In this document: positions 2,976-25,419 of the stretch, in pieces
Position numbering within the stretch: the first letter of the stretch is position 1
Layout: every line of letters starts with the position of its first letter
From: a virus
Virus record (IMG/VR): IMGVR_UViG_3300005833_000005
Coordinates: 1 to 28,163 of that record
Strand: one strand, 5' to 3'
DNA length: 28,163 nucleotides
Notes under the pieces: generated by a model
The model's input: the letters and a program-made list of their open reading frames with translations, nothing else
Databases searched by the model: none
Told to the model about the DNA's origin: nothing
Position numbers and translations under genes: made by a program

Positions 2976-2979
2976 TAAA

Positions 2980-4410: not shown

Positions 4411-4418
4411 TAAGTGTG

Positions 4419-4457: not shown

Positions 4458-4498
4458 TGCAATATGGGTATTAATCCCAAAAGAGGAAAAGGAAGCAC

Positions 4499-4789: not shown

Positions 4790-4792
4790 AGT

Positions 4793-5665
4793 ATGAACAC
4801 TGAGCCGCAAGTGGAAACTGTTCCGGAAATCCCTGTGAGGGTTTCTGTGAGTGCTCCAGCGCGGGAGCCGGATGCAGTGACCGTGGCGTATATCCATGGA
4901 AATCATGAGTATGGGGATTTGGTCACGCACTCATGGCACATGTCGCTGACCGAGTTGGTGGCCTGGGATTTGCAGCATGATGGGCGAGTGATCCGTGGTG
5001 GGTGGATTGCGGTTCGTTGTGGCACGGACGGTTTGCCAGATTCGCGTAATTCTGCAATTCAGCAATTTCTAGAGAACAGAGATTCTCAGTGGTTGTGTTG
5101 GATTGATACGGATATGGGTTTTCAGCCGGACATGATTGATTGTCTGGTGGAGGCTGCTGACGCTGAAACTCGACCCGTTATCGGTGCGTTATGTTTTTCG
5201 TGGAAAGAAACCGGCATTGATGGGATGGGTGGATATCGTTGTGAGCCACGGCCAACCATCTTTGATTGGAAAACAATTGACAATGAGACCGGTTTCGTTG
5301 GTAGGGCATCGTATCCGCCAAATACTCTAGTGCGTTGTGGTGCAACAGGTTCCGCTGCGATTTTGATTCATCGTAGTGTGCTTGAAAGCATGCGTGAACA
5401 GTATGGACAAAACTGGTATTCGAGGATTCCTAATCCGTCAACGGGTGGGAATCTTATTGGTGAGGATTTGTCCTGCTGTGTTCGTCTCGGTGCAATGAAT
5501 GTTTCGCTGCATGTTCATACCGGTATTCCGACGAGTCATCACAAGTCGGCATGGGTTAGTGAACTGGATTTCTTTGCATATACAGCCGGTAAGGCTGCGC
5601 TAAAGGAACAAGTGGAGATGGAAGCAGAAGCGGCGGAAATTGTAAGTGATGAGGTATCCATCTAA
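4793..5665 (+). CDS. Glycosyltransferase-like protein (GT-A fold, DxD motif)
   Basis: This 290-residue protein looks like a nucleotide-sugar glycosyltransferase. The best evidence is WIDTDMGFQPDMID, where Asp105 and Asp107 form a DxD metal/nucleotide-sugar motif after a hydrophobic strand. It is preceded by a DGLPDSRNSAIQQFL segment typical of GT-A enzymes that scan a substrate strand. Further downstream, GATGSAAILIHRSVLE and GEDLSCCVRLGAMN resemble the acceptor-side part, with a GED motif; a late His-rich stretch (TSHHKSAW) could bind metal. The N-terminal ~30 residues are variable. Actinophage glycosyltransferases lying among structural genes have been linked to glycosylation of capsid or tail proteins. 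Here the gene sits next to the capsid and just before putative surface proteins, so virion glycosylation is the likeliest role by inference. Confidence 0.72.
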   Translation: MNTEPQVETVPEIPVRVSVSAPAREPDAVTVAYIHGNHEYGDLVTHSWHMSLTELVAWDLQHDGRVIRGGWIAVRCGTDGLPDSRNSAIQQFLENRDSQWLCWIDTDMGFQPDMIDCLVEAADAETRPVIGALCFSWKETGIDGMGGYRCEPRPTIFDWKTIDNETGFVGRASYPPNTLVRCGATGSAAILIHRSVLESMREQYGQNWYSRIPNPSTGGNLIGEDLSCCVRLGAMNVSLHVHTGIPTSHHKSAWVSELDFFAYTAGKAALKEQVEMEAEAAEIVSDEVSI

Positions 5666-5790
5666 TGAGTGAAGATGCTGGATTTGAAAGTGTTATGGGT
5701 GTTGAGGCGACAGCAGTAGTAACGCATAATTATCCATGCGTTCCAGAATGTAATGTTTGCAATCCTAAAGGAGAAATTAAATGGCTGTAG
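5665..5790 (+). CDS. 41-residue Cys-rich small ORF
   Basis: An ATG at 5665 overlaps the stop of the glycosyltransferase-like gene (TAATG) and runs to TAG at 5788-5790, overlapping the next gene by 10 bases. The peptide begins MSEDAGFESVMGVEATAV and contains PCVPECNVCNP, i.e. Cys-x3-Cys-x2-Cys. It fills what would otherwise be a 115-base gap in a tightly packed operon, and the coupling at both ends argues that it is translated. A Cys cluster in so short a peptide could bind a metal, but only three Cys plus one upstream His (HNYPC) are present. No family is recognised. It may instead be a spacer that simply reads open. Confidence 0.5.
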   Translation: MSEDAGFESVMGVEATAVVTHNYPCVPECNVCNPKGEIKWL

Positions 5791-6158
5791 GGCTTGCTAC
5801 TGCTAGCGCTAACTCGATTCTTAACGTTTATAGGACAACTACCTATACTGGCATTACTGTGTGGGTGAAGTTGCATACTGCTGATCCGGGTGCGGCTGGT
5901 GCAACGGCTGCAAGCGCAGTACTCACGCGGAATCAGGCGACATGGTCTGCTGCATCCGGTGGCAGCATGGCGATTTCATCGCTCGCCGCGTGGACGATGA
6001 CAACAACCGAGACTATTTCACATATCAGTATGTGGGATGCGTCCACTGGTGGAAACTTTGTCCAGTCGGCTTCATTGACGACACCACAGGCAGTTGTCAA
6101 CACGAATACCCTTACACTGACGACGCTAACACTTTCGTATACACCGATCGCCGCGTAA
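5781..6158 (+). CDS. Putative virion surface (fibre/decoration) protein
   Basis: This 125-residue protein starts at ATG 5781 with AAAGGAG six bases upstream. The motif VKLHTADPGAAGA followed by a Thr/Ala/Ser-rich beta-strand pattern is shared with small actinophage proteins often annotated as tail fibre or virion proteins. The residues predict an all-beta fold with few charges, as is usual for a surface-exposed jelly roll or fibre subunit. It lies between capsid and connector genes rather than among tail-tip genes, so a head decoration role is at least as likely as a tail one. The label should be taken as structural virion protein, not as a proven fibre. Confidence 0.6.
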   Translation: MAVGLATASANSILNVYRTTTYTGITVWVKLHTADPGAAGATAASAVLTRNQATWSAASGGSMAISSLAAWTMTTTETISHISMWDASTGGNFVQSASLTTPQAVVNTNTLTLTTLTLSYTPIAA

Positions 6159-6176
6159 TCAGGAGAGAGGGATTAA

Positions 6177-6755
6177 ATGCCAGGATATCAGAGCACTCTT
6201 GTAGAGGCTCAGATTGATGGGACTGCTTTTAGTACATCAACGGCTGAAACAACCCTACTCCCGGCAGTTGCAAAGATTGTTATTCCATCGGGATATATTA
6301 ACCGCATTGGTAAACGGTTCTGTGTTAGGGCGTCAGGTCGTGTCTCAAATCTAGTGACAACTCCAGGAACGCTGACGTTTCGTTTTAAGTTGGGGCCGAC
6401 GGCCAACATTGCAGTTGCGACAAGTCAAGCGATTCAGCTTAACGCTGTTGCAAAGACAAACGTTGGTTGGTGGCTTGATTTATCAATGTTGGTCAGGTCT
6501 ATTGGTTCCAGTACTACTGCAACGATTATGTCTCAAGGAACGTGGCAGTCGGAATCTGTTGTCGGGTCTGGTCTACCGAGTGCTGGTGGTGCAGGATCGG
6601 CTATGTGGCAGGCTGCAACTCCTGTTGTCGGAACGGGTTTCGATTCGTCTGTTGCCAATCAGATAGATCTTACGGCGCAATTTTCTATTTCCAATGCTGC
6701 CAATGGTATTCAGTTGCACACTTTTGCTCTTGAGGATTTGACCACCACTCCGTGA
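6177..6755 (+). CDS. Beta-rich virion protein, likely capsid decoration
   Basis: This 192-residue protein starts at ATG 6177 after AGGAGAGAGG. The sequence alternates hydrophobic and Thr/Ser residues over its whole length, with segments such as KIVIPSGYINRIGKRFCVRASG and LTFRFKLGPT (read separately) and a final LHTFALEDLTTTP. This pattern is typical of a jelly-roll beta sandwich of the kind used by phage head fibres and tail surface subunits. There is no catalytic motif, signal peptide or membrane segment. It is the second of three consecutive beta-rich genes between capsid and connectors. A surface role on the head is inferred from position. A receptor-binding role cannot be excluded. Confidence 0.55.
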   Translation: MPGYQSTLVEAQIDGTAFSTSTAETTLLPAVAKIVIPSGYINRIGKRFCVRASGRVSNLVTTPGTLTFRFKLGPTANIAVATSQAIQLNAVAKTNVGWWLDLSMLVRSIGSSTTATIMSQGTWQSESVVGSGLPSAGGAGSAMWQAATPVVGTGFDSSVANQIDLTAQFSISNAANGIQLHTFALEDLTTTP

Positions 6756-6780
6756 TAAATAGGTAGGTGGTGACAACGGC

Positions 6781-9258
6781 GTGACGATTACTTTATTGCC
6801 TAGAACTAGTAATGTTTTAGGGCTAGGCTATCCGCCGTTTATTGATCCTTTGGCTAGCGGTTCTACGGCATTATTGAAAATAAAAGAAGCACAGTCCGGC
6901 GCGGCAACAAATAATTCGGTTACGCTTACTCTTGGAACTAATACTTCTGCGGGCGATTTGCTTCTGATTTTCAATCATAATGACTGGTATAATGCAGCAA
7001 GTATTCCTAATCCAACATCTTCGCAGACGTTGTCGAATCTTACTTTGCAAGCCACGGCTGATTCTGGGACAAATTCACCACATATTAAGTTTTGGACTGC
7101 ATTTACCACGGTTAACGGAGTACAAACTGTTACCGGCGCTCCCGTGTCTGACGAAGAAATTACTTTTCATGTAATTGTGATTGATGGTAAAACAGTTAAC
7201 TCTTTTGACTTTCTCGATGGTTCGACAGCGACAAATAGTGGTACGTCGTCAATTTTACATGTGGCACCTTCGGTTAGTTCGACTACAATAAATAGCTTGT
7301 TGGTTTCTGCTGTTGGTTCAGCAAGTACCGCTGGTGCAGCAGCAAATTATACCTCGCCAGCGGGGATGATCGAACAAACTGATGTGAGGGAACCTTCTTT
7401 TCAAGCTCTCGGTAGTATTGCTAGTGAACAGTTAGTTACCTCCGGTGCAACTGGTACTAAAACGTTCACACTAAATGGGACGGCTCAAGCTTTTGCCGCA
7501 ATTTCGGTAGCAATCAAATGGGTCGGTGATGTAAATTCAGGTACTGTAACTCAAGCGATTACGGCGAATGCAGAAGTTATAGGTTCAGTTACTAGTGATG
7601 TTCCTGTTTTGGTGCAATCTGCACAGTCGGTTTGGAACACAACGACATCACCTAAAACTGTAACTTTGACAACGCAAGCCAATGATGTCATTATCGTCAT
7701 GGCGATAAGTGACTCTGGTAGAACGTGGAGCGTTCCAACTGGTAACTCGGTAACATTCGCCCTTGAAAAATCGTATACTGATGCTAACTCGGCGTGTGTG
7801 TATTTGTGGTCTGCTACCGACAGTGCGGGTGGAACCAACTGGACGTTATCGGTAGCAGCGACAGCGGGCAGTACGCAATGGGGAATCGTCGCATATGTAT
7901 TCCGTTATTCTAGCGGTCCTGGTGTATCTGGTATCACGGGTGGGCAAACTACGGGTCTCCCGAGTCAAGCTCTTACTACTGGTATGGATAAATCTGCTAT
8001 TGTCGCTGGTGTCGGTGACTGGTCTGCACAAGCCATCACGTCGCGAACGTGGAAAACAATTAACTCGGTCACTCCGACTGCTGGCAATGGGTTGGAAAAG
8101 GTTGCGTCGCAACAGGTTAGCCTTTATACTGCATATTCGGCGTATTGGGATAACGTAGGTACTGCCGGTTCCAAGACTGCCGGGATGGATGCACCATCCG
8201 GTATGACGTGGACCATTGCCGCTATCGAGGTCAAGCCCGTAGCAACGAGTGCCAAGACCGGTGCCGTAACTCAAACAATCACAGCGGGTTCCAGTGTCGT
8301 CGGTGTCGTTGCTACATCGGGTGCTGTAACTCAAGCCATCATAGCGGGTTTCAGTGTCGTCGGTGTCGTTGCTACATCGGGTGCTGTAACTCAAGCCATC
8401 ACAGCGGGTTTCAGTGTCGTCGGTGTGAGTGGTGCTGTCGGTGCCGTAACTCAAGCCATCACAGCGGGTTTCAGTGTCATCGGTTCTGTTGGTGGCGCTC
8501 AGCCTCAAGGTCAGGTCACTCAAACGCTGACTGCGGTAAGCGCTGTCGTGGGAACGGTGCAGACGTTCGGTGCTGTAACGAGCGTGTACACGGCTGGCTC
8601 GAGTGTGGTCGGTGTCGTTGCTAAGACGGGTGCCGTAACCGCCACTGAGACAGCGGTTTCCACTGTTGTCGGTTCTGTTGTCGCTGGTGTGACGGGTTCC
8701 GTAACCGCTGTAGAAACGGCAGCAAGCACGGTTGTTGGTGTTGTTGCTGTGTTCGGTGCAGTGACTCAAACCTTAACTGCCGCAAGCACAGTCATCGGTG
8801 TTGTGAACAGGAGTGGTGTTGTAACTGCTTCTGTTGCAGCGGGTTTCAGCGTTGTTGGTTCCACGGTGGCAGGGGTGATCGGCCAGGTCACCCAAACGAT
8901 CACTACTGGTGCCACCGTGGTTGGTCTACGGGGATCGGTCGGCGCAGCCTCTGTGGCTATCGCTGCTGGCTCAGTGGTGACCGGGCGGGTAGATGCCACG
9001 GGTACCGTGATCATTACTGTCCAGGGCGTGTACACAGTCGCTGCTGTGCGTGCTACGTCCGCTACGGTGGGTAGTTCTATCTCGTCTAATGTTCTTGCTA
9101 CTGCTTTCGTAGTTGGTACCTATGGTTATAGTAGGATCGGCGTTGGTGTAACTGGTGGACCATTCTCTATTATTGATGATTCAGGTGGGCCATCCTCAGT
9201 TATCGATGATTCAGATAGAAATGTTTCGTTTGGTGTCGTTGGAGAGGGTGTCAATTAA
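6781..9258 (+). CDS. Large repetitive virion protein (two beta domains plus ~12 tandem repeats)
   Basis: This 825-residue protein begins at GTG 6781, with AGGTGG about 10 bases upstream. Residues ~20-250 and ~275-490 look like two copies of one beta-sandwich domain: each has a strand-rich start with Thr runs, a GDLLL/NDVII segment, an aromatic centre, and a closing [AI]A[AI]IxVxxK strand. From residue ~494 to ~760 there are about twelve repeats of roughly 20-23 residues with the theme GAVTQAITAGFSVVGV. The C-terminus (~760-825) has a duplicated SIIDDSGGPSSVIDDS acidic stretch. Such beta-repeat stalks suit a fibre or surface lattice. Its place before the connector genes suggests the head or neck. 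The repeats are near-identical at DNA level in part of the gene (see the repeat entry). Confidence 0.65.
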   Translation: MTITLLPRTSNVLGLGYPPFIDPLASGSTALLKIKEAQSGAATNNSVTLTLGTNTSAGDLLLIFNHNDWYNAASIPNPTSSQTLSNLTLQATADSGTNSPHIKFWTAFTTVNGVQTVTGAPVSDEEITFHVIVIDGKTVNSFDFLDGSTATNSGTSSILHVAPSVSSTTINSLLVSAVGSASTAGAAANYTSPAGMIEQTDVREPSFQALGSIASEQLVTSGATGTKTFTLNGTAQAFAAISVAIKWVGDVNSGTVTQAITANAEVIGSVTSDVPVLVQSAQSVWNTTTSPKTVTLTTQANDVIIVMAISDSGRTWSVPTGNSVTFALEKSYTDANSACVYLWSATDSAGGTNWTLSVAATAGSTQWGIVAYVFRYSSGPGVSGITGGQTTGLPSQALTTGMDKSAIVAGVGDWSAQAITSRTWKTINSVTPTAGNGLEKVASQQVSLYTAYSAYWDNVGTAGSKTAGMDAPSGMTWTIAAIEVKPVATSAKTGAVTQTITAGSSVVGVVATSGAVTQAIIAGFSVVGVVATSGAVTQAITAGFSVVGVSGAVGAVTQAITAGFSVIGSVGGAQPQGQVTQTLTAVSAVVGTVQTFGAVTSVYTAGSSVVGVVAKTGAVTATETAVSTVVGSVVAGVTGSVTAVETAASTVVGVVAVFGAVTQTLTAASTVIGVVNRSGVVTASVAAGFSVVGSTVAGVIGQVTQTITTGATVVGLRGSVGAASVAIAAGSVVTGRVDATGTVIITVQGVYTVAAVRATSATVGSSISSNVLATAFVVGTYGYSRIGVGVTGGPFSIIDDSGGPSSVIDDSDRNVSFGVVGEGVN
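8261..8484 (+). repeat. 60-bp tandem direct repeats inside the 825-residue virion gene
   Basis: The sequence repeats with an exact 60-base period, about 3.7 units. Units 8281-8340 and 8341-8400 differ at only two bases (8342 and 8351). The next unit keeps its first 26 bases and its last 20 almost unchanged and diverges in between. Because the period is a multiple of three, gain or loss of units keeps the frame and would lengthen or shorten the protein by 20 residues per unit. Similar but older, diverged units continue to about 8900. Confidence 0.85.
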
Positions 9259-12505: not shown

Positions 12506-13003
12506 ATGGCGACTAGACCTAGCATTGATCTAATTATTGAAGGTCCCGCTATTAAACAGATTCCTAAACTTGCTAGAGAGTTAAAGGAATTAGGAGACGG
12601 GAAAACTATTCCTAGGGAATTTCGTAAGGCACTCAGAAAGAGTACAGATGGTGCCTTGGCGGGAGGTAAGCGTGCGGCATTGGCGTTGCCATCTCAGGGG
12701 AAGTCTCGCGGTGCCACAGGTCTACGGCGCAGAATTGCACGAGCAATGCATGCTCAAGTTTCAACGTCAGGTGATGCGCGACTTGGAATTAGAATTTCTA
12801 AATCATCACTTGGTAATGAACGAAATTTGCCACGTCTCATGAATCAAGGGACGTGGCGTCACCCGGTTTACGGGAAGGATGTGTGGGTTACCCAAACGTC
12901 ACGTGCCAATTGGTTTGATGATGAGATGAGAAAGCAAGCGCCAGATGTAATCAGAGAACTAGAATCGACTATTGATATTTTTGAGAAGAGGCTCAGGGTG
13001 TAA
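12506..13003 (+). CDS. HK97 gp10-like tail completion/connector protein
   Basis: This 165-residue protein starts at ATG 12506, with GAGGGGA seven bases upstream. It carries the pattern of the HK97 gp10 group: an N-terminal helix region rich in Lys/Arg (AKQIPKL-like helix, then REFRKALRKS), LRRRIARAMHAQV, and the diagnostic PRLMNQGTWRHPVYGKDVW with WVTQ and a conserved WFDDEM. Such proteins join the tail to the head or complete the tail. In HK97 and many relatives the gene precedes the major tail gene. Here it lies between the chaperones and the tape measure, a less usual order. The stop overlaps the tape measure start (TAATG). Confidence 0.7.
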   Translation: MATRPSIDLIIEGPAIKQIPKLARELKELGDGKTIPREFRKALRKSTDGALAGGKRAALALPSQGKSRGATGLRRRIARAMHAQVSTSGDARLGIRISKSSLGNERNLPRLMNQGTWRHPVYGKDVWVTQTSRANWFDDEMRKQAPDVIRELESTIDIFEKRLRV

Positions 13004-15186
13004 TGGCCGAAAATAGCCTCACTTGGAACTTTATAGCCAAGGATAAGGCGTCTCAGGTCGCTAAGGGAATTGGCACGGTTTTTAAGGAAGTCGGTACGGG
13101 AATCCTGTTGAGCCTTGGTGAGCGAGCAGTTGAAGGGGTTATTAAATTTGGTGAGGCACTTATTGATGGTGTCAAGGCTGCTGATGAATATCAGAAATTG
13201 GCGAGAACTACTGCGGCTGTAATCGAGTCCACTGGGAAAAAGGCCGGGGTATCGGTTAAGGATGTTCAGGGGCTAGCGAATACGCTGGAGAACTTATCTG
13301 CTGTTGATAGTGAACTGATTCAGAATAGTGAAAATGTACTCCTAACATTTACGAATGTTAAAAATGCAGCAGGTAAGAATAATGACGTTTTCAATCAGGG
13401 TACTTTGGCTGCTTTGAATATGTCAACTGCACTTGGTAGCGATTTGCAAGGTGCCACTATCCAAGTCGGTAAAGCGCTCAATGATCCGATTAAGGGTATT
13501 ACTGCACTTTCACGAGTAGGTGTAAGTTTCACTGATCAGCAAAAAGAGCAGATTAAGGCCATGGTGAAATCAGGCGATACCATGGGCGCTCAGAAATTAA
13601 TTCTCAAGGAACTTAATACGGAATTTGGTGGCGCCGCAAAAGCTGCCGGTGAGGGTTTGGGCGGGGCTTTGTTCCGTCTCAAGGATACTGTTGGTGATGC
13701 TTTTCGCGGTTTGGGAACGTTACTTTTACCGGTAATACAAAAAACCGCTGATTGGTTGACATTAAAAGCAATTCCTGCCGTACAGAGTTTTGGAACTGAG
13801 TGGGGTCCGAAACTCATTCCAACCATCAAGAATGCTTACAATTTTATTATGGCACTCGGTAGATTCATTGGTGAAGAATTGTGGCCAATAATTGATAAAG
13901 GTATCAAGGGTGTCATGCCCTACCTGCAAAGGGCATGGGAGACAATCTCTAAAGCATTCAAGGATAACCAAGGTCAGTTGTCAACTTTGAATACATGGTT
14001 TATTAAGATTTGGGATTTCATCAAGGCGTACGTTCTGCCGATCTTGGGGAAACTTATCGGTGAAGGTATAAACGTACTGGCTCAGGTGTTTGGTGTTCTC
14101 ATTACTGTTATCGGTACAGTTATCAGCATCTTGGGAAAAGTATTCTCGGCGTTCGGAACTACAGTTACAGCAGTTAAAGGTGTCATCAGTGTCGGTAGGG
14201 AATTTATCACGGGCTTTGCTGATTCCATCAAGAGTGGATATAATACTGTAACCAATTCTATCAGTGGGTTTATTCAGAGCATCAAGAATTTATTCGGTAG
14301 CGCTAGAACGTGGCTGCTGCAAGCCGGTAGAGATGTTCTTAATGGATTCCTAGATGGATTGAAAGCTATTTGGGGGACTGTCACAAACTGGGTTGGTGGA
14401 ATCGCAACTTGGATCAAAGATCACAAGGGTCCGATCCGTCTTGACCGTACGCTACTTGTTCCAGCCGGTAAGGCTATCATGCAAGGTTTCTTGAGCGGTT
14501 TGGAATCTGGTGCCGGTAAGGCATGGGATTTCGTGAAATCTGTTGGAGGGAAAACTAAGGAAGCCATTGCGGAGGCTTTGGGATGGATTCAAGGTATTGG
14601 TTGGGCTGGTGCGGGTGGAGCGGTAAGTCAGAGTGTAGCGCAGTGGGCTAACACTGCCCGAGAGGCACTTATAGCGGCCGGTGCTCCCGTTAGTTGGTTG
14701 CCATCGTTGCTTGCAAGAATGCAACGAGAGAGCGGCGGTAATCCAAACGCCATCAACCTATGGGATATTAACGCTAAGAATGGTGTGCCATCAAAGGGTT
14801 TGATGCAAGTCATTGGTCCGACGTTCTCGGCGTATGCTGGTCAATATGCATCGCGTGGCATTTACGATCCTTTTGCGAATATTTATGCTGCTATCCGTTA
14901 CACGGTTGCGCGTTACGGTTCTGGTCCTGCCGGGTGGGGGCAGCCTGGTGGGTACGACCGTGGCGGGATGCTGAATCCTGGGTATACGTTGGCGTACAAC
15001 GGAACTGGTGCTAACGAACACATTTTAACGGGTGATCAGTTTAATACTCTGGTTGGCAATGGTGGTGGTGACACTATGGTCAATGTATATCTAGATGGTG
15101 AACTAATTAGAGGCGTTGCTAGAGTTGAAGTTCAGCGAGGATTGACAACGGTGGCCCGTAATATTTCTGGACGGCGGAGTTACTAA
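13003..15186 (+). CDS. Tape measure protein with C-terminal lytic transglycosylase domain
   Basis: This 727-residue protein starts at ATG 13003. Residues 1-270 are helical with the phage minor-tail signature (KDKASQVAKGIGTVFKEVG; a LSRVGVSFTDQQKEQIKAM segment). Residues ~340-400 hold hydrophobic membrane-like stretches (VLPILGKLIGEGINVL, VFGVLITVIGTVISILG), as usual in tape measures. Residues ~560-650 form a goose-lysozyme/SLT-like domain: MQRESGGNPNAINLWD, with Glu576 the candidate catalytic acid, then KGLMQVIGPTFSAYAG and YDPFANIYAAIRY. This domain would open peptidoglycan during DNA entry. The length predicts a fairly short tail, about 100 nm by the usual 1.5 angstrom per residue rule (inference). 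Confidence 0.88.
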   Translation: MAENSLTWNFIAKDKASQVAKGIGTVFKEVGTGILLSLGERAVEGVIKFGEALIDGVKAADEYQKLARTTAAVIESTGKKAGVSVKDVQGLANTLENLSAVDSELIQNSENVLLTFTNVKNAAGKNNDVFNQGTLAALNMSTALGSDLQGATIQVGKALNDPIKGITALSRVGVSFTDQQKEQIKAMVKSGDTMGAQKLILKELNTEFGGAAKAAGEGLGGALFRLKDTVGDAFRGLGTLLLPVIQKTADWLTLKAIPAVQSFGTEWGPKLIPTIKNAYNFIMALGRFIGEELWPIIDKGIKGVMPYLQRAWETISKAFKDNQGQLSTLNTWFIKIWDFIKAYVLPILGKLIGEGINVLAQVFGVLITVIGTVISILGKVFSAFGTTVTAVKGVISVGREFITGFADSIKSGYNTVTNSISGFIQSIKNLFGSARTWLLQAGRDVLNGFLDGLKAIWGTVTNWVGGIATWIKDHKGPIRLDRTLLVPAGKAIMQGFLSGLESGAGKAWDFVKSVGGKTKEAIAEALGWIQGIGWAGAGGAVSQSVAQWANTAREALIAAGAPVSWLPSLLARMQRESGGNPNAINLWDINAKNGVPSKGLMQVIGPTFSAYAGQYASRGIYDPFANIYAAIRYTVARYGSGPAGWGQPGGYDRGGMLNPGYTLAYNGTGANEHILTGDQFNTLVGNGGGDTMVNVYLDGELIRGVARVEVQRGLTTVARNISGRRSY

Positions 15187-16812
15187 ATGGCAATCTATAT
15201 GACAGATGTCTTTACGGGTACTCCTTTCACTTCTTGGAATTCCAGTAACTGGACTGATGATTATGAATCAGTAAACGCGAGCGCTTACATTGATATAAAT
15301 GGCAATGCTGGACAGATTCACTTGGGCACAGCGACAGTTTACTTGGGTGAATCTTCGCATCGTGCTACTGGTGCTGGTCAACATGCAGATATGCAGATAG
15401 ATTTCTCGTTCACATTCTTTGGTTCTCAAGATGGAACAGTTGAGGTCTGGCTTCGTGCTGTTGGACCTTTTAATTCGCAAACAGGTTATGAGTTATGGAT
15501 TGCTAGAAGTGGTAGCGGTTGGACTCTTAAGAGGGTTGTTGATTGGTCAAGTACAGATTTAAATAGTATGACAAGTATGACTTTTACCGATGGATCAAAA
15601 TACAAGGGAAGATTCAAGGTCTCTGGAACCGGTGCAACAGTTACACTTTCAGCCAAAGTTTGGTTAGCAACAGACAGTGAGCCTGGTTCTTGGACCACGT
15701 ATGCAGATACCAATGCTGCTAGAATCACTACATCAAACTGGGGTGTTATAAATGGTAAGGGTGGGAATGCCTCTGGTTTGGTTATTAATATAGATGATGT
15801 CACAATTTCTGACGGTGCGGGTTCTGTATCCGGTACGGTTGTTCATACGACGACGCGTAACGCCACGGTAGTCGGTGTTGCTGCTGTACCGTCAAAGCAG
15901 GGGCAAGTGGCACATACGACAACTCGCAACGCTACGGTTGTCGGTTTGAAAGCCGGAACGCATGGTGTCCATTCTTTCCCGCAAATTTCGATGACTGCTA
16001 TCGTTGCTGGATTTGGTGGTTCACCTGCACCGACCTTGCAGTTGACGGAATTGAATACTCCGTCTCCCGGGGTGAGGGTTACTGTCCTGTCCGTTGCACC
16101 GGATGCTGATAGCATTACCATTTATCGGACAGATTCGAGTGGTGAGACTGTATCATTGCGTGGTGCCACGGAAGCGGTATTAACGGGGTCATTCGTTATC
16201 GATGATTATGAGGCTCCACTTAATACGGTTCTCACGTATACAGCAACTACACGAACTATTACTAAGGTTCCTTCTACCGGATCACAAAGTTATGCCATTG
16301 AATTGTCGAGCGTGTACACGTGGCTTACCGATCCGGTAGTCCCGACAAATGCAGTCGCTGTGAGAGTGCGGGAGTTTCCGTCTATCAGTAAGTCTATTGA
16401 CAATGCAATGCTTTCGGTGATCGGTTCACCCTATCCGGTCATGGTTGCTGGGCAGCGTCTTGCCGGTTCCGGTCGACTTTCGCTTTTAACGTTGGACCTT
16501 GGTGAATTGGAACTATTGCGCTCGGTTCTACAGTCGACAGCAATTTTATTGCTACGTGCGCCATATACGACATGGGACTTAGGGACGGCATTTCTTGGTA
16601 TTGGTAACGTATCTGAATCGCGCTGGAGTAGGTTGATTTCTGATCCGACTAGAATTATTGAGTTGGACGTTACGTATGTTGCGCAGCCTCCAGCGACCAT
16701 AACGGGAGCGTTGCATACGTACGCGGAACTGGCGCAGAGAGGGTATACTTACCGAAATTTGTCGGACCCCAACCTGACGTATTTGCAACTTTCTCAAAGG
16801 GGTGGAATCTAA
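15187..16812 (+). CDS. Distal-tail-like minor tail protein with N-terminal lectin-like domain
   Basis: This 541-residue protein starts at ATG 15187, directly after the tape measure stop, as the distal tail gene does in siphophages. Residues 1-205 look like a concanavalin/LamG-type beta sandwich (DVFTGTPFTSWNSSNW, then a YELWIARSGSGWTLKR strand) that may bind sugars. Residues ~215-260 carry two copies of a VVHTTTRNATVVGV repeat, the same theme as in the 825-residue virion protein. Residues ~275-370 look Ig-like. From ~379 (TWLTDPVVPTNAVAVRV) to the end the sequence resembles the tail-bound domain of actinophage minor tail proteins. The end, with a duplicated LAQRGYTY/LSQRGG motif, matches many of these proteins. 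Confidence 0.68.
   Translation: MAIYMTDVFTGTPFTSWNSSNWTDDYESVNASAYIDINGNAGQIHLGTATVYLGESSHRATGAGQHADMQIDFSFTFFGSQDGTVEVWLRAVGPFNSQTGYELWIARSGSGWTLKRVVDWSSTDLNSMTSMTFTDGSKYKGRFKVSGTGATVTLSAKVWLATDSEPGSWTTYADTNAARITTSNWGVINGKGGNASGLVINIDDVTISDGAGSVSGTVVHTTTRNATVVGVAAVPSKQGQVAHTTTRNATVVGLKAGTHGVHSFPQISMTAIVAGFGGSPAPTLQLTELNTPSPGVRVTVLSVAPDADSITIYRTDSSGETVSLRGATEAVLTGSFVIDDYEAPLNTVLTYTATTRTITKVPSTGSQSYAIELSSVYTWLTDPVVPTNAVAVRVREFPSISKSIDNAMLSVIGSPYPVMVAGQRLAGSGRLSLLTLDLGELELLRSVLQSTAILLLRAPYTTWDLGTAFLGIGNVSESRWSRLISDPTRIIELDVTYVAQPPATITGALHTYAELAQRGYTYRNLSDPNLTYLQLSQRGGI
15832..15951 (+). repeat. Two-copy repeat in the distal-tail-like gene
   Basis: Two units of about 66 bases encode VVHTTTRNATVVGVAAV and VAHTTTRNATVVGLKAG. 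The core ten residues (HTTTRNATVV) are identical but several third codon positions differ, so the duplication is not recent. The pattern matches the VTQ.ITAG.SVVGV repeats at 8261-8900. Confidence 0.65.
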
Positions 16813-16813
16813 G

Positions 16814-17959
16814 ATGCGAACGGCAGGGAATGCCACTTTGGCAACGCTCGGCGGTTCGTATCGACTTTCTGTATGGGCAGATGTTTGGTATGCGAACCAA
16901 TTGGTAGCATCAGAAATCCCTATTACCGGCGGTTCTATTTCATTTGATATTTCCCAGGATATTTCCTCACGACTTGAGATCGTTGTCGGTGATTCTGGTC
17001 GAGACTTGACACCAGTGTTCCCAACTGATCCTTTGGGTTGTTATGGGCAGGAAATAAATATCAATGTCGGGGTCGCTGGCGGTTCGGCTCTCGCTGAACC
17101 GTTATCACTTGGTTGGTTTAGAATTCAGCATACGGAAGTAAATCAGAAGTGGTATCGAAATTCTAGTGGAGCATGGCGTTCCGGTGGTTCTGTTATCAAT
17201 GTTACGGCTTTGGACAGGATGGCCACCTTAGCGGATGCTCGGCTTTTGGCTGTGCAGCAACCACCATTAGGGTCTACGGTGTTCAGTGAGATTCGTAGAC
17301 TTCTGGGTAATCTAGTTCCCATGGGCGTGATTGATTCAGAGTTAGCAGATGCGCAGGTTCCTAGTAATATTGTATATGAACAAGATAGAGTTGTGAACAT
17401 TGTTTCATTGGCACGGGCGCTTGGTGCAATTGTGAAGATGGATTCAAATGGTTATTTAAATGTAAAAAGAGCAACGGCTTACGGTGACACTCCCATCTGG
17501 ACCTTCACGGCTGGTGAAGGTGGAACGATTATTGATTACAGTGTTCAGATGTCAAGAGATGGTGTTTATAATTCCGTGATGGTTACTGGTGAGGCTAATC
17601 AGGATCTTGCACCATGTATTGCAATAGCTTATGATTTGGATCCTAATTCACCATCACGGTGGGGTGGGCCATTCGGTGAGGTACCGATGTTTTATTCTTC
17701 GCCACTTATTACGACTTACCCAGCGGCGCAGATGGCAGCAGCAACGCGACTCAATAATATGATTCGAGGTAGGGACAGGGAGTTTACTTTTAGCGTAGTA
17801 CCGAATCATGTAGTAGAACTAGATGATCCGGTTGAGGTAATACTGCCGGACCGGACCATACCGGGACGCATTTCTAAACTGACCTTGCCATTGACTCCCG
17901 GGTCTATGAGCGTCACAATCAGGGCATTGGATTCCTCTATCGTTGTCATAGGAGACTGA
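16814..17959 (+). CDS. Tail hub-like minor tail protein (DUF5047-like)
   Basis: This 381-residue protein is read from ATG 16814: the AGGGGTGG at 16798-16805 is well spaced for it, but too close for the in-frame GTG at 16802. The opening beta strands (YRLSVWADVWYANQLVA, then ITGGSISFDISQDISSRLEI) and the domain order resemble the gp27/Tal hub proteins at the tail tip, in particular the actinophage minor tail group known as DUF5047. A central segment (VINVTALDRMATLADARL) and a C-terminal VVELDDPVEVILPDRTIPGRISK support this. It would sit below the distal tail ring and carry the giant adhesin encoded next. The fold call is inference from gene order plus pattern. Confidence 0.65.
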   Translation: MRTAGNATLATLGGSYRLSVWADVWYANQLVASEIPITGGSISFDISQDISSRLEIVVGDSGRDLTPVFPTDPLGCYGQEININVGVAGGSALAEPLSLGWFRIQHTEVNQKWYRNSSGAWRSGGSVINVTALDRMATLADARLLAVQQPPLGSTVFSEIRRLLGNLVPMGVIDSELADAQVPSNIVYEQDRVVNIVSLARALGAIVKMDSNGYLNVKRATAYGDTPIWTFTAGEGGTIIDYSVQMSRDGVYNSVMVTGEANQDLAPCIAIAYDLDPNSPSRWGGPFGEVPMFYSSPLITTYPAAQMAAATRLNNMIRGRDREFTFSVVPNHVVELDDPVEVILPDRTIPGRISKLTLPLTPGSMSVTIRALDSSIVVIGD

Positions 17960-17961
17960 CC

Positions 17962-20900
17962 GTGGCGATTGATCTCGAAAGTGTTCTCCCTCAGTCTGTT
18001 GGCACTACTGCTTATTACGTTATTGGGACAGTTGTTAATACGCCTGCTGTTTCGTCAATGATCAGCGTAAATATTCACGGTACAGTGGTTATCCTTCCAC
18101 ATTTGCAAAGTTACATTCCTGCTGTTAATGATTCTTGTATGATTATGGTTCAGGGAACACAGCGTATTGTGATCGGTGCTGTAACTAATCCCAGCATGCC
18201 GACTGGTGACAGGGGTCTCGCTCCCCTTCCGTCGCAGGCAATTCCGGGTACCCCTATTTCTCCTGTTCCATCGCAAGCCGATGTTACACGGACCTTTGTT
18301 GCTTTAAGTACTGGTGACTGGGTTTCCACTAATACTACGTTGCTGTTCGATCAATTCAATGGTCTGGATAACTGGCTCATTAGCAGTGGTGGGGACATTG
18401 TTAACGGCCAATTTCGTATGGTGGCTTCTAATTCCTGGTATAACGCGATGGCCAGGCAGAGCCCATTGGGCAATGTTATTGTAATGGACTTTACTGGTTC
18501 GACTATTACCATCAGGGTTCCGCAAACTATTCCTATGGGCGTCGGGAAAAACTACGAGCAGATTTTGTTCATAGAAAATAGTGTTACGGGCAACCGTTAT
18601 GAATTTATGATCTCTGGTTCTGATAGCAATATTAACGCACGTGACCGTGTCAGTGGTACCTATCACACTTATGGGATTTCGCCATATTCTTCAACAGACC
18701 ATCAATGGATTCGCATTAGCGAGTCTGGTGGAATGATGAGATGGTGGACATCTCCTAATAACCTCAATTGGACTTTGCTCGCTGAGACTACTGTTTCATT
18801 TTCTCTTTCCAGTATGTTTGTGTACTTGACATGTGGACATGATGGATCGGTTCCTGATTCCTATGGATATTGGGATGACTGTCGTATTGATGTTCCAAGT
18901 GCTGTCGGACAGTGGAGGACTGACACCAAGCAACCGCATATGGGTAACCCTGGTGACGGTCTCCACACTGGTACTTGGTTTTATGGTCAAGGCATTAATA
19001 CGGCGTTGGACGGCGCTACGATTTCATCTGCAAAGATATATCTACGCCGTGCTGCTGGTGGCGTGTACACGTCCGTGGCGCCAACCTTGTATTTAGTGAC
19101 ACAAGGGAGTCAACCGGAAGCCGGACCTACTCTGATCGGTTCTCCTGTAACACTTTCTCCTATCCCATATGATTCAGAAGGTTGGTTCGATCTTCCATTA
19201 AGTTTCGTTCAGCAGTTCTCTAATGGTGGTGCGTTCGGCATTGCTTGTCATGTTCCTTCTGCTAACCCATTTATCGCATTCTCTTCACTGGCCGAACGTA
19301 GGCAAAGCGGAGCATTGCAACTGACGTACAATTCTGGGGTTCCTGGTGGTGGTGGGTCATTCAAGTACGGGCAGGTGTTTTCCCAGATTAGGGCAGTGCC
19401 CACGGTAAGCGTTGTTGGTACTGTAAGTAGCAATGCTCAGATAGCATCGTTTTCTACCGTGAAAAATGGTACCACTATTGTTAAGCCATCCGGTACGTCA
19501 ACTGATGATGTGCTTATTGCAATTCATTACAATGACACTGATGGTTCGCTAGGAGCCATGACTGCACCGGCCGGTTGGGCTTTGGCTACGAATGGTTCAT
19601 ATACTGGAAGTTCTGGATTTGTAAAAATCTGGTGGAAAGCTGTTACGGCTACTGAACCTGCTACCTATGATTTTACCGTGGGTGCTGGTTCAGAGAATAT
19701 GGTTATTCTCCTACGTGGTATCGGAATCAATACCACTACACCTTTCTTGACTAATCCTGTATTCGCCTCGGCCACATTGCCCGGCACCGTGCATGATGCA
19801 CCTTCTGTATCTGCTACTGCTGAAGGTGTGCTCGTATGTGCCTGGGAGACACAGGTTCCTGTCGTTGCAAATAACTGGACTGTGCCGAGTGACATGGTTG
19901 CACTCGGTGATGTGAATCAGCCTGCCGACTGGGTTACCGCTATTGCAGCATATAAGCGTTTGTCTGCTAATGTTGCTTCCGGTGTTCGAACTGCTATTTC
20001 TTCATCTACTCCGGCTGGCACATTCGGTAATATTGGCCTTTCATTTATCCTTGCTCCGTCTGGCACGGGTGGAGGTGGAGGTGGGACTGTTCCCGGTGCA
20101 TTCATGATGGGAGCATCCGGGATCGCTGTTGCCAACGGTGAGATGGACGCATGGTTAGTGAATGGACCTTTGCAGATTGCTGGCACGTGGGGTGATGTTC
20201 CCGGCTCCCAGGTGGAGCAGTGGAGCACCCGGCCGGGTGGCGAATATGGTAGTTGGACAAGGGCGTTGGATATTGCCGTTGGTGCTATATTCAAGTCGCA
20301 AGGTGAAACGTGGGCTAATGCTGCTGCTGGCACTTATGATTCACGTTGGCAGGCTATCGCCAATCAACTGAAATCAAATCTAGGACCTTCTACGATTCCG
20401 GGCCCAACGGGTGGAGTGGCGTGGCCTCTCAAGGTAGCAACCAATGGGCATTATCTTGTAGATCAGAATAACAATCCATTCTTTTACAGTGCCGATACCG
20501 CATGGGTCTCGGTCTCTCGATTGACCGTAACGGATGCTAAACGGTACATCGATATCAAGGCTGCGCAAGGATTCAGCGCTTTACAGTGTAGTCTCACGGT
20601 GTGGGGCAGGGATCAGGCCGGTGACAAGGGCTCCCCGTTCAATGGTGCCGATCTCACACAGCCTAATGCCGCTTACTGGTCGGACGTGGATCAGATTCTC
20701 GACTACGCGAATAGTCGAGGTATGCTCATCGTTCTTTGGCCGCTATGGATGGCTGACAATGGCGGATGGGCGGGTGGCAGTGCACCGAGCACCGGATCTA
20801 TGTCTACGTATGGAACGTGGCTCGGGAATCGCTATCGAAATCGCGGGCATATCATGTGGGCGCTCGGAGGTGATGAGCAGTATGAGCAGATTTCGCCGCA

Positions 20901-23223
20901 GATTGATGCCATTGCTTCGGCGCTAAATGCAGCGGATGCCAATCATCTGATCACGTATCACCCGCGCTGGGACAATTACAATCTACGCACTCAGTCGTGG
21001 CTTGACTGGAATTCGATTCAGCACAACGACAATAATTCGCCGATGTGTTATGAATTGGCCCGGACGGGATATGACCTTACGTCGCCTACCAAACCGTTCC
21101 TGAATTCCGAACCGCCGTACTATCCCGATACGGCCATGGGTAATACCACGTCGGTACAGCGGAATCGCCAAAATGGGTGGTGGTCGATGCTCGGCGGTTC
21201 CATGGGTGTTGTCTACGGTGGAACGCGATATGGCACATGGAATATCGGAGGCAGCGGTCAATATGATTGGGTAGGTGCCGCAGACAAGACCGGATTGCAC
21301 ACCGGTAACATTGGAAAGATTCTGACGCAATTCCACTGGGAACGGCTCGTTCCTGACTGGGGTTCATCGGTCGTGACATCGTCGCGCGGGACCTATGGCA
21401 GTACGGATTATAGAGCCGTGGGAAGAGCCTCGGACGGCTCGGTTATCGCGGTCTATCTGCCTTCGGGTGGAAATGTTACCGTAGCCTTGTCGCAACTTTC
21501 GGCTTCGGGTACAGCGCAGTTCTTTGACGTGGCGAATGGTAACTCCGTGTCGTCCGTGAATGTTAACAATTTCGGCACCCAGGTATTCACTCCCCCTGGG
21601 AACAACTCTGATAACGGCTCGGACTGGGTACTCATTCTGTCGACTACGGCCGGACGGGTTTCGGCGCAGGGAGACGGAACCGTTACTCTAGGAGCGCGTG
21701 ATCCCCGATATTGGTTTGTCAACTTTGCGCGAGAGATGAATGGCGGTTGGTCTGATTGGAATGTTCAGCCTGGTGAAGAGGCTAACTTTAGAACTGCCTA
21801 TGGAAGATTCCAGAATATTCTAAAGGCGACAATTCCAGGAATTAAGACTGTCCTCGTGTATAATGACGGCACTACTACCGGATGTGATACTGATGCAATT
21901 TGGCCATCAGCAACGCCACCGGATGTGTTGGGTGTTGACACCTATAATGCCTGGCCGCATGTTACAGATGCTGCGGGATGGACAACCAAGATAAATCTTA
22001 CGGAAGCTGGTGGTCGTCCGGCAGGTATCGAGACGTGGCGTCAGAAGGCACTATCTCACGGTGTTCCTATCGCATTCCCCGAATTTGGCAATCCAGGATT
22101 AAACAATGGGGAGGGTGGTGGAGGTGGAGATGATCCTTATTGGTTACAGCAAATGCTCACTTATTGTCAATCCAAGGCTGGCACTGGTGCCGGTCAAGTA
22201 ATATATGCTGTCTACTTTAATATTGGTCTGAATGAAGGATATACATCGGACTACATCTTGTTCGCTGGTAGTAGCGGAATCACTATTCATCAGCCGTTGA
22301 ACAGTGAGGTTTTTAGAACTATTGCCAGGTCGGTGGGTTCCGTGACACCACCACCTCCTCCTCCTCCACCACCGACAACGACAGGATTCCCAGCAAGAGC
22401 AGCGGGTATCTGGTATAACAAGTGGGAAGGTCCCATTTTAGGAGCGTTCCCAAGTGACGTATTGGGAACCTTGAATTACGTCATGGGAGCATTCGCTGAA
22501 TCTAGCAGTATAGGAACGGGTAGTGTAAGTTTCTCAGGTTACGGTGGTTATGGTTCTGACGCTGCGCTGAAGGCTGACATTGAAGCTCTCAAGGCTCGGG
22601 GAATTAGCGTTGCAGTTTCGATTGGTGGAGCGACAAATAACGGAAAGACATTACTACAGAACTCAACTCATAGATCGCAGATGTTAGCGTCTATTCAATT
22701 CATGGTGAGTACGTACGGATTCAATGGTGTCGATTTCGATATGGAAGCATCGAACGACTGGACGCCTACGGAGATGGCAACCTTCTGTGGACAGTTAAAG
22801 GGGTACTTCGGTTCTCAGTTCATTGTTGGTATGACAATGGGACTGTACGGAATCCTTGGTGATAACTGGCGTACAGCAGCAGGGTTGGCTGGAAATAACT
22901 GTGATTACTATTGTCCCATGCTTTATGACTTCCCAGAGGCTGGCGACAGTCGTCTGACTGGAGTTGCGCAAGATAAGATTAATTTCTTGAATGCGGGTGG
23001 ATTAAGCACGAGCAAGATTATCCTTGGATTTATGTTGAGGGTAAACTCTGAGTCATATCCTAACGCATCTCCGTTGAATGTTGCGCTATCCGCGTATCAG
23101 ACGGCTAAGGCGAACAATCCCACGCTCCGTGGCGCGTTCCTGTGGGAGCATTACCGTGATTCACGTTCTAATCCGTCATGGCCGTTCGTTCGTAACATTG
23201 GTACATTTGTGAGGAATGGATAG
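17962..23223 (+). CDS. Giant tail adhesin/depolymerase with three glycosidase-like modules
   Basis: This 1753-residue protein starts at GTG 17962, with AGGAGA six bases upstream. Domains by approximate residue: 1-80 OB-like tail attachment domain; 125-310 lectin/LamG-like sandwich; 318-450 beta domain; 500-700 beta domain like those of the 825-residue virion protein; Gly-rich linker near 705. A GH26-like glycosidase spans 712-815 and resumes at 1230-1455 (acid/base candidate Glu1258 in AREMNGGW, nucleophile candidate Glu1374 in FPEFGNPG). Inserted within it, residues ~820-1228 form a DUF4038/GH140-like glycosidase plus beta tail (LGGDEQ at 968-973, NSEPPYYP with Glu1050). A nine-proline linker (1463-1471) leads to a GH18-like domain (1475-1753; VDFDME with Glu1595). 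It probably binds and digests the host surface glycan. Substrates are unknown. Confidence 0.82.
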   Translation: MAIDLESVLPQSVGTTAYYVIGTVVNTPAVSSMISVNIHGTVVILPHLQSYIPAVNDSCMIMVQGTQRIVIGAVTNPSMPTGDRGLAPLPSQAIPGTPISPVPSQADVTRTFVALSTGDWVSTNTTLLFDQFNGLDNWLISSGGDIVNGQFRMVASNSWYNAMARQSPLGNVIVMDFTGSTITIRVPQTIPMGVGKNYEQILFIENSVTGNRYEFMISGSDSNINARDRVSGTYHTYGISPYSSTDHQWIRISESGGMMRWWTSPNNLNWTLLAETTVSFSLSSMFVYLTCGHDGSVPDSYGYWDDCRIDVPSAVGQWRTDTKQPHMGNPGDGLHTGTWFYGQGINTALDGATISSAKIYLRRAAGGVYTSVAPTLYLVTQGSQPEAGPTLIGSPVTLSPIPYDSEGWFDLPLSFVQQFSNGGAFGIACHVPSANPFIAFSSLAERRQSGALQLTYNSGVPGGGGSFKYGQVFSQIRAVPTVSVVGTVSSNAQIASFSTVKNGTTIVKPSGTSTDDVLIAIHYNDTDGSLGAMTAPAGWALATNGSYTGSSGFVKIWWKAVTATEPATYDFTVGAGSENMVILLRGIGINTTTPFLTNPVFASATLPGTVHDAPSVSATAEGVLVCAWETQVPVVANNWTVPSDMVALGDVNQPADWVTAIAAYKRLSANVASGVRTAISSSTPAGTFGNIGLSFILAPSGTGGGGGGTVPGAFMMGASGIAVANGEMDAWLVNGPLQIAGTWGDVPGSQVEQWSTRPGGEYGSWTRALDIAVGAIFKSQGETWANAAAGTYDSRWQAIANQLKSNLGPSTIPGPTGGVAWPLKVATNGHYLVDQNNNPFFYSADTAWVSVSRLTVTDAKRYIDIKAAQGFSALQCSLTVWGRDQAGDKGSPFNGADLTQPNAAYWSDVDQILDYANSRGMLIVLWPLWMADNGGWAGGSAPSTGSMSTYGTWLGNRYRNRGHIMWALGGDEQYEQISPQIDAIASALNAADANHLITYHPRWDNYNLRTQSWLDWNSIQHNDNNSPMCYELARTGYDLTSPTKPFLNSEPPYYPDTAMGNTTSVQRNRQNGWWSMLGGSMGVVYGGTRYGTWNIGGSGQYDWVGAADKTGLHTGNIGKILTQFHWERLVPDWGSSVVTSSRGTYGSTDYRAVGRASDGSVIAVYLPSGGNVTVALSQLSASGTAQFFDVANGNSVSSVNVNNFGTQVFTPPGNNSDNGSDWVLILSTTAGRVSAQGDGTVTLGARDPRYWFVNFAREMNGGWSDWNVQPGEEANFRTAYGRFQNILKATIPGIKTVLVYNDGTTTGCDTDAIWPSATPPDVLGVDTYNAWPHVTDAAGWTTKINLTEAGGRPAGIETWRQKALSHGVPIAFPEFGNPGLNNGEGGGGGDDPYWLQQMLTYCQSKAGTGAGQVIYAVYFNIGLNEGYTSDYILFAGSSGITIHQPLNSEVFRTIARSVGSVTPPPPPPPPPTTTGFPARAAGIWYNKWEGPILGAFPSDVLGTLNYVMGAFAESSSIGTGSVSFSGYGGYGSDAALKADIEALKARGISVAVSIGGATNNGKTLLQNSTHRSQMLASIQFMVSTYGFNGVDFDMEASNDWTPTEMATFCGQLKGYFGSQFIVGMTMGLYGILGDNWRTAAGLAGNNCDYYCPMLYDFPEAGDSRLTGVAQDKINFLNAGGLSTSKIILGFMLRVNSESYPNASPLNVALSAYQTAKANNPTLRGAFLWEHYRDSRSNPSWPFVRNIGTFVRNG

Positions 23224-23881: not shown

Positions 23882-24538
23882 ATGGCTACTAATAGGTATG
23901 GATTCGTTTACCCGCTCTCCGATGCACAGGTTGATGTACCCAATGATACCTTGGCGCTAGTGGATTCGATTGGTTCTCATTCCATTGATAGATTTACAAA
24001 TGCTGGTCAGCGTGATTCGTTTATCACTCAACCGGTAGAGGGTCAAGTTGCTTGGCTGGATGATATTAATATTCTGACATTTTATACCGGTACTCAGTGG
24101 CTTGAGCATAAGGGAAAAGGTGTCAATCTGCCTGCCACGGTGGAAAGCTACGGTGATGGGCAGAATGTCATTTCGGCTGCTTCGGCAGATGTGCTGCCTA
24201 GTTTTACTGCTAATGCTGTCATTACTAATCCACATCCCTCGCGTAGCATGAGATGCCAGATTATTTACTCCTGTTGGATTGCCTCTAATGGTGCTGTAGT
24301 CCAGGCAGGAGTAACATCAACTGGCGCTTTTACTCTGACAATTCCTCCACCATCTGCGGGTTGGGGACGGACCATTTATGTAGGTAACATTGGGTCGGTT
24401 GCCATTCAACGGATGGGAACTATTGTGGTTGAATTGCCGTCCGGTACGACAACATTCCAGTGGAAAGCTTGGAGGAACAGCGGTAGTCCTCTGGTCAGTT
24501 ATCCAGTTACAACAGTTATTCCGCAATGTTACCTTTAG
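23882..24538 (+). CDS. Minor tail-tip protein, second paralogue
   Basis: This 218-residue protein starts at ATG 23882, directly after the TAG of its paralogue, and has exactly the same length. The shared N-terminal block reads YGFVYPLSDAQVDVPND, DSIGSHSIDRF, RDSFI, EGQVAWLDDINILTFYTG. Late segments also align in order (a strand with a Trp near residue 135, then NIGS/NVGG, then FQWKAWR versus FSWQARR, then YP.[IT]TV at the end), so the duplication covers the whole gene. Divergence is moderate to high, so it is old. Two non-identical copies could form a hetero-oligomeric tip or allow separate receptor specificities (inference). Confidence 0.65.
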   Translation: MATNRYGFVYPLSDAQVDVPNDTLALVDSIGSHSIDRFTNAGQRDSFITQPVEGQVAWLDDINILTFYTGTQWLEHKGKGVNLPATVESYGDGQNVISAASADVLPSFTANAVITNPHPSRSMRCQIIYSCWIASNGAVVQAGVTSTGAFTLTIPPPSAGWGRTIYVGNIGSVAIQRMGTIVVELPSGTTTFQWKAWRNSGSPLVSYPVTTVIPQCYL

Positions 24539-24549
24539 GAGCGGACAGC

Positions 24550-25419
24550 ATGAAGGCCAAGATTGATAGCGTTCGTTGTCCACTGGCCTTGTGGCGTCCG
24601 CTATCGGCGCGCCAGAATGAACCTAAAATCGTCCCGCGTATATTAATCACGCATACCATGGTTGGTTACTTGCGTGGCACAGAAACAATGTTCAGGCAGA
24701 ATGGATTCAATGGAACCGAGTCGCATTTTGGTCTCGGTGGTCCGGCTGATGGCAAAGATTTAGATGGTGTCCTTTGGCAATGGCAGGCATTGGATCGACA
24801 GGCTGATGCACAGTATAGAGGTAATACTTATGCGACATCTATTGAGACCTCGGATGGTGGTAAGCCTTCAACTCTGTGGTCGGAAAAGCAATTAGAAGCA
24901 CTGATCAGATTGCATGTGTGGTGGTCTCAAGCAACAGGAAACCCGGGAAAGATCGTTGATACGTGGAACGGCAATGGGTGGGGTTGGCACGCTCAGTTTA
25001 ACGAGTGGAATCCGAACGGACATGTTTGTCCGGGAGATGCAAGAATCGCTCAACTCCATGAAGTCGTATGGCCTACTGCCGCACGTAGAGTGGGGGAGAA
25101 AGGCGGCCCGTCCAGCCGTGGCGCTGGCCGGACTTCTGTGTCAGACTTTCCACTGTATCCGTTGGATACAGGTGAGTATTTCGGTCCAGAGTCCGGTCCG
25201 AATGAATCGGTTAGCGGATTTCATAGGCATTCTGCTGACTTACGTTTATGGCAGAATAGAATGGCAGAGCGTGGGTGGCAGATAAAGTCGGATGGATTGT
25301 ATGGATATTTTACACGAGCAATTGTTATGCAGTTCCAAGAGGAAATGGGATTGACGGTTGACGGTTTAATTGGTAAAGACACATGGGATGCCGCGTGGCT
25401 TAGGGAAGTGACTCGTTAA
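24550..25419 (+). CDS. Endolysin: N-acetylmuramoyl-L-alanine amidase with peptidoglycan-binding domain
   Basis: This 289-residue protein is read from ATG 24550, with AGGAG eight bases upstream. Residues ~15-185 form an Amidase_2/PGRP-type domain: LITHTMVGY with His35, ESHFGLGG with His59, a WQWQALDRQADAQYRGN middle and WHAQFNEWNPNGHVCPGDAR with His147 and Cys160. His35, His147 and Cys160 are candidate zinc ligands. The enzyme would cut the bond between the glycan strand and the stem peptide. A linker rich in Gly/Ser/Arg (~185-205) leads to a PGB_1-type binding domain (~225-285; LWQNRMAERGW, then GYFTRAIVMQFQEEMGL). There is no signal peptide, so export depends on a holin. The two membrane proteins that follow are candidates. 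Confidence 0.88.
   Translation: MKAKIDSVRCPLALWRPLSARQNEPKIVPRILITHTMVGYLRGTETMFRQNGFNGTESHFGLGGPADGKDLDGVLWQWQALDRQADAQYRGNTYATSIETSDGGKPSTLWSEKQLEALIRLHVWWSQATGNPGKIVDTWNGNGWGWHAQFNEWNPNGHVCPGDARIAQLHEVVWPTAARRVGEKGGPSSRGAGRTSVSDFPLYPLDTGEYFGPESGPNESVSGFHRHSADLRLWQNRMAERGWQIKSDGLYGYFTRAIVMQFQEEMGLTVDGLIGKDTWDAAWLREVTR

Follow-up and report, generated by a model that had tools for sequence, protein, structure and literature searches.

The tail-protein locus and its domains

The window, by which we mean the whole 28,163-nt stretch of DNA analysed here (the 28.2-kb virus record IMGVR_UViG_3300005833_000005), carries portal, head, tape-measure and tail genes, with a glycosyltransferase-like gene (phrog_34859, 4793-5665) among the head genes. 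Since the portal protein is closest to the portals of Gordonia, Mycobacterium and Rhodococcus phages (34-39% identity), the host of the virus is probably an actinobacterium. The genes that concern us are:

13003-15186: tape measure gene, upstream of the tail protein gene
16802-17959: phrog_1887 tail protein gene, between the tape measure gene and the 1753-aa gene
17962-23223, + strand: tail (minor tail / adhesin) protein gene, 1753 aa, GTG start, open reading frame confirmed
24526-25419: PG_binding_1 endolysin-like gene, downstream of the 1753-aa tail gene

The 1753-residue product was classed as a phage tail or minor tail protein from its position in the tail module and its homology to annotated minor tail proteins. 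For phage depolymerases in general, the opening or binding of host surface glycans by glycosidases at the tail tip is established, and this protein is expected to have such a function. Searching with the second half of its GH26-type barrel, we found an orthologue of 1124 aa on another phage contig (L002), in a matching gene neighbourhood; the two proteins align over their full length except at two places. The features of the gene, all on the + strand, are:

17962-18315: N-terminal part, residues 1-118, common to L002
18316-18906: second insert relative to L002, a beta-rich domain, residues 119-315, absent from L002
18907-19335: phrog_25601-type beta domain, residues 316-458
19393-20034: phrog_3329 domain, residues 478-691, uninterrupted in the window
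20083-20385: first half of the GH26-type barrel, residues 708-808, beta1 to alpha3
20379-20385: direct repeat TCTAGGA, left copy, at the insert border
20386-21687: inserted segment including linkers, residues 809-1242, absent from L002, from the phage outgroup L003 and from seven bacterial homologues
20440-21300: apiosidase-like catalytic barrel (PF13204, Pfam E 5e-58), residues 827-1113
20872-20874: Asp971 (LGGDEQ), GH140 catalytic Asp column by alignment
21109-21111: Glu1050 (NSEPPYYP), GH140 catalytic Glu column by alignment
21412-21639: Collagen_bind_2 (PF12904, E 8e-11) beta tail of the inserted enzyme, residues 1151-1226
21687-21693: direct repeat TCTAGGA, right copy, 1308 nt (436 codons) downstream of the left copy
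21688-22338: second half of the GH26-type barrel, residues 1243-1459, beta4 to alpha8
21730-21732: Arg1257, immediately before the GH26 acid/base Glu1258
21733-21735: Glu1258 (AREMNGGW), GH26 acid/base position by alignment
22081-22083: Glu1374 (FPEFGNPG), GH26 nucleophile position, invariant in alignment A5
22345-22386: proline-rich linker between GH26 and GH18, from the translation
22384-23220: GH18 module (PF00704), residues 1475-1753, motif NGVDFDME (Glu1595)

Residues 1-118 are weakly similar to minor tail proteins of Arthrobacter, Streptomyces and Microbacterium phages. At the other end of the protein, the GH18-like module that the sequence-only reading had placed after the GH26 domain was recovered by Pfam, with a PF00704 match at residues 1501-1665 when the protein was scanned (E 1e-8) and an E of 8e-10 when the module was scanned alone. 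Its DxxDxDxE motif reads NxxDxDxE, the first Asp being replaced by Asn and Glu1595 kept. A tblastn search of 50,697 phage records with this module gave no match. In L003 the GH18 is a separate downstream gene (6661-8079), and in the window and L002 it forms the C-terminal part of the tail protein.

A GH26-type barrel interrupted in its alpha3-beta4 loop

The main difference between the window protein and its orthologue is a gap at which the window has KSNLG, 434 further residues and LGARDPRYW, and L002 reads KSNLG-SRDPRYW, so that the flanks rejoin exactly. The GH26 part of L002 is contiguous and 87-88% identical to the window halves, which are free of stops. This comparison, together with profiles and fold comparison, bears out the earlier proposal that a GH26-like barrel is split by a whole DUF4038/GH140-like enzyme. 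The borders given for the inserted enzyme proper (about residues 820-1228; 809-1242 with linkers) were kept; those of the two halves, first put at 712-815 and 1230-1455, moved to 708-808 and 1243-1459, shifts of up to about 13 residues.

The family assignment comes through the homologues. A Pfam scan of the 1753-aa protein gave no GH26 above the cut-off, the joined window halves had no Pfam match, contrary to what the sequence-only reading had hoped for from such a search, and the second half alone reached PF02156 only below threshold (E 0.14). PF02156 is matched by 8 of the 9 members of the homologue family (best 1.2e-8), L002 lying below the cut-off and L003, L006 and L012 above it, and a profile built from the nine uninterrupted homologues leads to GH26 crystal structures, with CtLic26 at E 6e-10. 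One alignment that mixed both enzyme families placed apiosidase rows onto GH26, and the fold was predicted from a set with little misalignment. No match to the joined GH26 sequence was obtained by tblastn in the 50,697 phage records. Several further copies of this domain were seen in one actinobacterial genome (G009; loci L012, L067 and L070-L073), which has at least five GH26-like copies and also holds the closest apiosidase homologue that we found; the neighbourhoods of its GH26-like and apiosidase-like genes gave no clue to a substrate.

The AlphaFold model of the L002 GH26 domain (pLDDT 85.3, pTM 0.88) has eight strands in barrel order, and its first 13 Foldseek matches are GH26 chains or a fusion to one. 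Had the two flanks been unrelated tandem domains with a spurious likeness to GH26, the failure of the joined window sequence to match Pfam would be expected, but L002 has the same segments contiguous in one confidently predicted GH26 barrel; that explanation is already refuted, and we leave it virtually no probability. Based on L002, the profiles and the fold comparison, residues 708-808 and 1243-1459 are one GH26-type domain.

In the L002 model alpha3 ends at 102 and beta4 starts at 110, and the insertion falls at 102-104. The surface loop proposed from the sequence alone is thus placed precisely: in this model the insertion site is the alpha3-beta4 loop, on the face of the barrel opposite the GH26 active site. 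The alpha-to-beta loops of TIM barrels lie on that opposite face, and an insertion there, away from the active site, would leave the GH26 catalytic face free. The model of window residues 701-1463 is of moderate confidence (pLDDT 64.5, pTM 0.48). It has the nested strand order (beta1-3, insert, beta4-8), and Foldseek returned GH140 at the top with CtLic26 also among the matches. Among viral structures, Foldseek gave no clear nested match.

Catalytic residues of the outer barrel

Glu1258 and Glu1374, the two catalytic Glu after beta4 and beta7, are invariant in the alignment, the region of Glu1374 being aligned with the TETGN stretch of CjMan26C, and the window also keeps the Asp and Tyr residues at positions that do not vary in the GH26-like family. 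The residue before the acid/base is Arg in the window (Arg1257) and in L002, and His in the other eight aligned homologues; according to PDB alignments, His before the acid/base Glu is usual in GH26. This substitution of a conserved His beside the acid/base may reduce or alter the GH26 activity of the window protein, and of L002 too. The earlier statement that both enzymes are catalytically intact is therefore to be narrowed: the catalytic acids are present in both, but in the GH26 domain the His beside the acid/base has become Arg.

The same substitution is what would be expected if the GH26 domain were a broken, degenerate barrel that now serves as scaffold or binding domain, so that activity would be left to the inserted enzyme and perhaps to the GH18. 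Against this speak the retention of both catalytic Glu and of the invariant Asp and Tyr positions, the stop-free halves that are still so close to L002, and an insertion on the face opposite the active site. We regard degeneration as rather unlikely, though it is a reading that deserves to be kept in mind.

The inserted segment is a complete apiosidase-like enzyme

The segment within the barrel was described from the sequence alone as a complete enzyme with its own LGGDEQ and NSEPPYYP motifs and a beta tail, and each part of this description was confirmed. The catalytic part matches PF13204 with 197.7 bits, against a curated cut-off of 26.5, over positions 2-304 of the 320 of the profile; PF12904 covers the beta tail, and in the PDB comparison the 409 aa of the insert cover 8t9w, 3kzs/5msy and 4qfu end to end. 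The apiosidase 8t9w was matched both by sequence (E 3e-34 to 1e-33) and by Foldseek with the nested model (E 1e-25), and identity to the solved GH140 members is about 21-25% in the fold alignments. Asp971 and Glu1050 stay the same throughout alignment A3, which includes bacterial relatives; the former is aligned with the GGD of 8t9w, 3kzs and 4qfu and the latter with the GEP/DEP of the PDB chains. We take these columns to be D187 and E284 of BT_1012, which is consistent with the chain numbering. Short linkers, PSTIPGPTGG and STTAGRVSAQGDGTVT, flank the enzyme, one on each side.

The insert also covers, end to end, a standalone secreted-looking enzyme of an actinobacterial genome (47% identity), and a standalone bacterial homologue (L029) has the catalytic domain and the beta tail in the same order. 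Nine other viral contigs carry a PF13204 enzyme, standalone or in tandem, and none of the nine has it nested; in one of them (L037, 3237-7274) a GHL15 barrel is followed by the apiosidase-like enzyme. Another candidate phage carrier, MT835628.1 (L028), is labelled Bacteriophage sp. Its apiosidase match has mannosidase-like, glycosidase and transporter genes as neighbours, and we rejected it, since a match adjoining mannosidase-like and transporter genes is probably in bacterial DNA. Apiose is a plant sugar; "apiosidase" is therefore used here as a family label, and the substrate of the phage enzyme is not given by the name.

Origin of the insert

The insert is in frame. From its amino acids and the remainder of the window a GC3 of 0.42 would be expected, and 0.58 was observed; no other 435-codon stretch in the comparison has so high a z (7.06). 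The step in GC3 falls at the insert borders. This difference suggests a recent, foreign origin and points to entry from a source with higher GC. The exact alignment of L002 across an in-frame insert and the GC3 step at its edges also argue that the nested architecture did not arise by chance. The heptamer TCTAGGA stands at both borders, 1308 nt apart and in frame. At first sight the pair resembles a target-site duplication. Since about 6% of random stretch pairs from this gene share at least 7 bp, however, we treat the repeat as suggestive only.

A foreign composition confined to the insert, and the fact that homologue searches found no second independent genome carrying the nested form, would also fit an assembly chimera, in which an unrelated apiosidase contig was misjoined into the phage gene. 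For such an artefact, both joins would have had to keep the frame, coincide with the ends of a complete domain, include linkers on both sides and hit a loop between two secondary-structure elements of the host barrel. We consider it highly improbable.

The direction of change was read from the uninterrupted relatives. In L003, which is 49% identical, the GH26 domain is uninterrupted, as it is in all seven actinobacterial GH26-like proteins. Since L002, L003 and the seven bacterial proteins all lack the insert, the change is, by this sequence comparison, a gain of the enzyme in the window lineage. Were the nested form ancestral, with precise deletion of the insert in L002, L003 and the bacterial homologues, the TCTAGGA copies could serve deletion as well as insertion, but exact loss would be needed in 9 of 9 uninterrupted homologues, among them seven from bacteria and the phage protein with 49% identity, and the foreign composition of the insert would not be explained. 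Ancestral nesting is in our view extremely improbable.

Further insertions in related tail genes

The enzyme is not the only segment by which these tail proteins differ. The second insert of the window (197 residues) matches phrog_14065 (E 8e-9) and is similar to Streptomyces phage minor tail proteins; it follows an apparent first strand (TRTFVAL), which it cuts off from the phrog_25601-type domain, and this type of split domain occurs in minor tail proteins of Arthrobacter, Streptomyces and Microbacterium phages. In the L003 protein (1627-6651), a LamG-like domain (residues 1074-1277) splits the phrog_3329 domain, whose joined halves are matched at E 1.5e-9 and for which the whole protein gives no match. 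The inserted LamG-like domain is about 34% identical to the N-terminal domain of the same protein, suggesting that it arose by internal duplication and insertion. These two insertions are less certain than that of the enzyme, since the domains that they interrupt are defined less clearly than GH26. Taking the three cases together (the enzyme in GH26, the beta domain in the phrog_25601-type domain, the LamG-like domain in phrog_3329), we propose tentatively that whole-domain insertion into edge or back-face loops might be a regular growth route of this actinophage tail-adhesin lineage, a possibility that we do not yet favour.

Proposed model

Based on our results, we consider it very likely that the window encodes a siphovirus-like tail-tip adhesin whose GH26 barrel was split by the recent in-frame capture of a whole apiosidase-like enzyme, with a GH18 module after it. 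A complete enzyme of the secreted type, with its beta tail, would have been captured in frame inside a GH26-type (beta/alpha)8 barrel, possibly through illegitimate recombination, and would sit in the back-face alpha3-beta4 loop with short flexible linkers on both sides. Because the insertion is on the back face and the linkers are short and flexible, both barrels could fold and work. One polypeptide at the tail tip would then present three candidate glycosidase sites (GH26, apiosidase-like and GH18), all of which may be active, with host surface glycans or a cell-wall-linked polysaccharide as possible targets. Gaining an enzyme could have helped the phage to bind to a surface that had changed, or to get through it.

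The locus, with its well-defined borders, its compositional footprint and an orthologue that lacks the insert, is an example of such a capture caught in the act, and it shows how viruses build multi-enzyme tails. It also offers a natural, directly testable case for the tolerance of a TIM barrel to an insertion the size of an enzyme, and suggests alpha-to-beta loops as places where bifunctional glycosidases could be engineered. Furthermore, the missing Pfam GH26 match of the window protein illustrates that linear domain annotation misses split hosts.

Comparison with known systems

In the usual description, a phage tail protein is a row of modules linked one after another. Domain insertion is common, and multi-enzyme tails and binding modules nested in glycosidase barrels are already known. 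What seems unusual is that a phage tail protein has, on the back face of a barrel, an entire enzyme that exceeds this barrel in size, and that an empty-site orthologue exists. We found no published enzyme-in-enzyme glycosidase in a phage tail, in a search that covered few subscription journals and is weak evidence of absence.

Taken singly, the components have clear counterparts. The inserted enzyme resembles the GH140 apiosidases (8t9w; 5msy/3kzs, which are BT_1012) over its full length in sequence and fold, with both catalytic acid columns kept, and other viral PF13204 proteins have the same enzyme and beta tail, in tandem (L035, L037) or standalone (L036, L038-L043). The outer barrel has its best profile and fold matches in the GH26 lichenase CtLic26 (endoglucanase H, 2bv9) and GH26 mannanases, from which it differs by an identity of about 14%, by Arg for His beside the acid/base and by its interruption.

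For the architecture, a catalogue of 48,551 domain insertion events notes TIM barrels as preferred hosts, and its inserts are smaller than their hosts in 77% of events (medians 115 versus 199 residues; PMC13114784). The window shares the A1-B-A2 arrangement of these events, but its insert of 434 residues exceeds a host of about 318. The SusG amylase, as cited in PMC7848910, has a CBM58 inserted in domain B of GH13 and is likewise a glycosidase with a functional domain nested in it, the SusG insert being a binding module and that of the window an enzyme. A further parallel is the GH10 xylanase Pm25 / Xyn10C of Bacteroidetes, whose GH10 barrel has CBM4 modules placed after beta3 and before alpha3 and is active despite these inserts, which can be excised without loss of catalysis (PMC7848910). 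In both proteins a glycosidase (beta/alpha)8 barrel is interrupted by whole carbohydrate-acting domains; Pm25 / Xyn10C holds binding modules in a beta-to-alpha loop, whereas the insert in the phage tail protein of the window is a second enzyme, complete and bigger than its host barrel, and lies in an alpha-to-beta loop.
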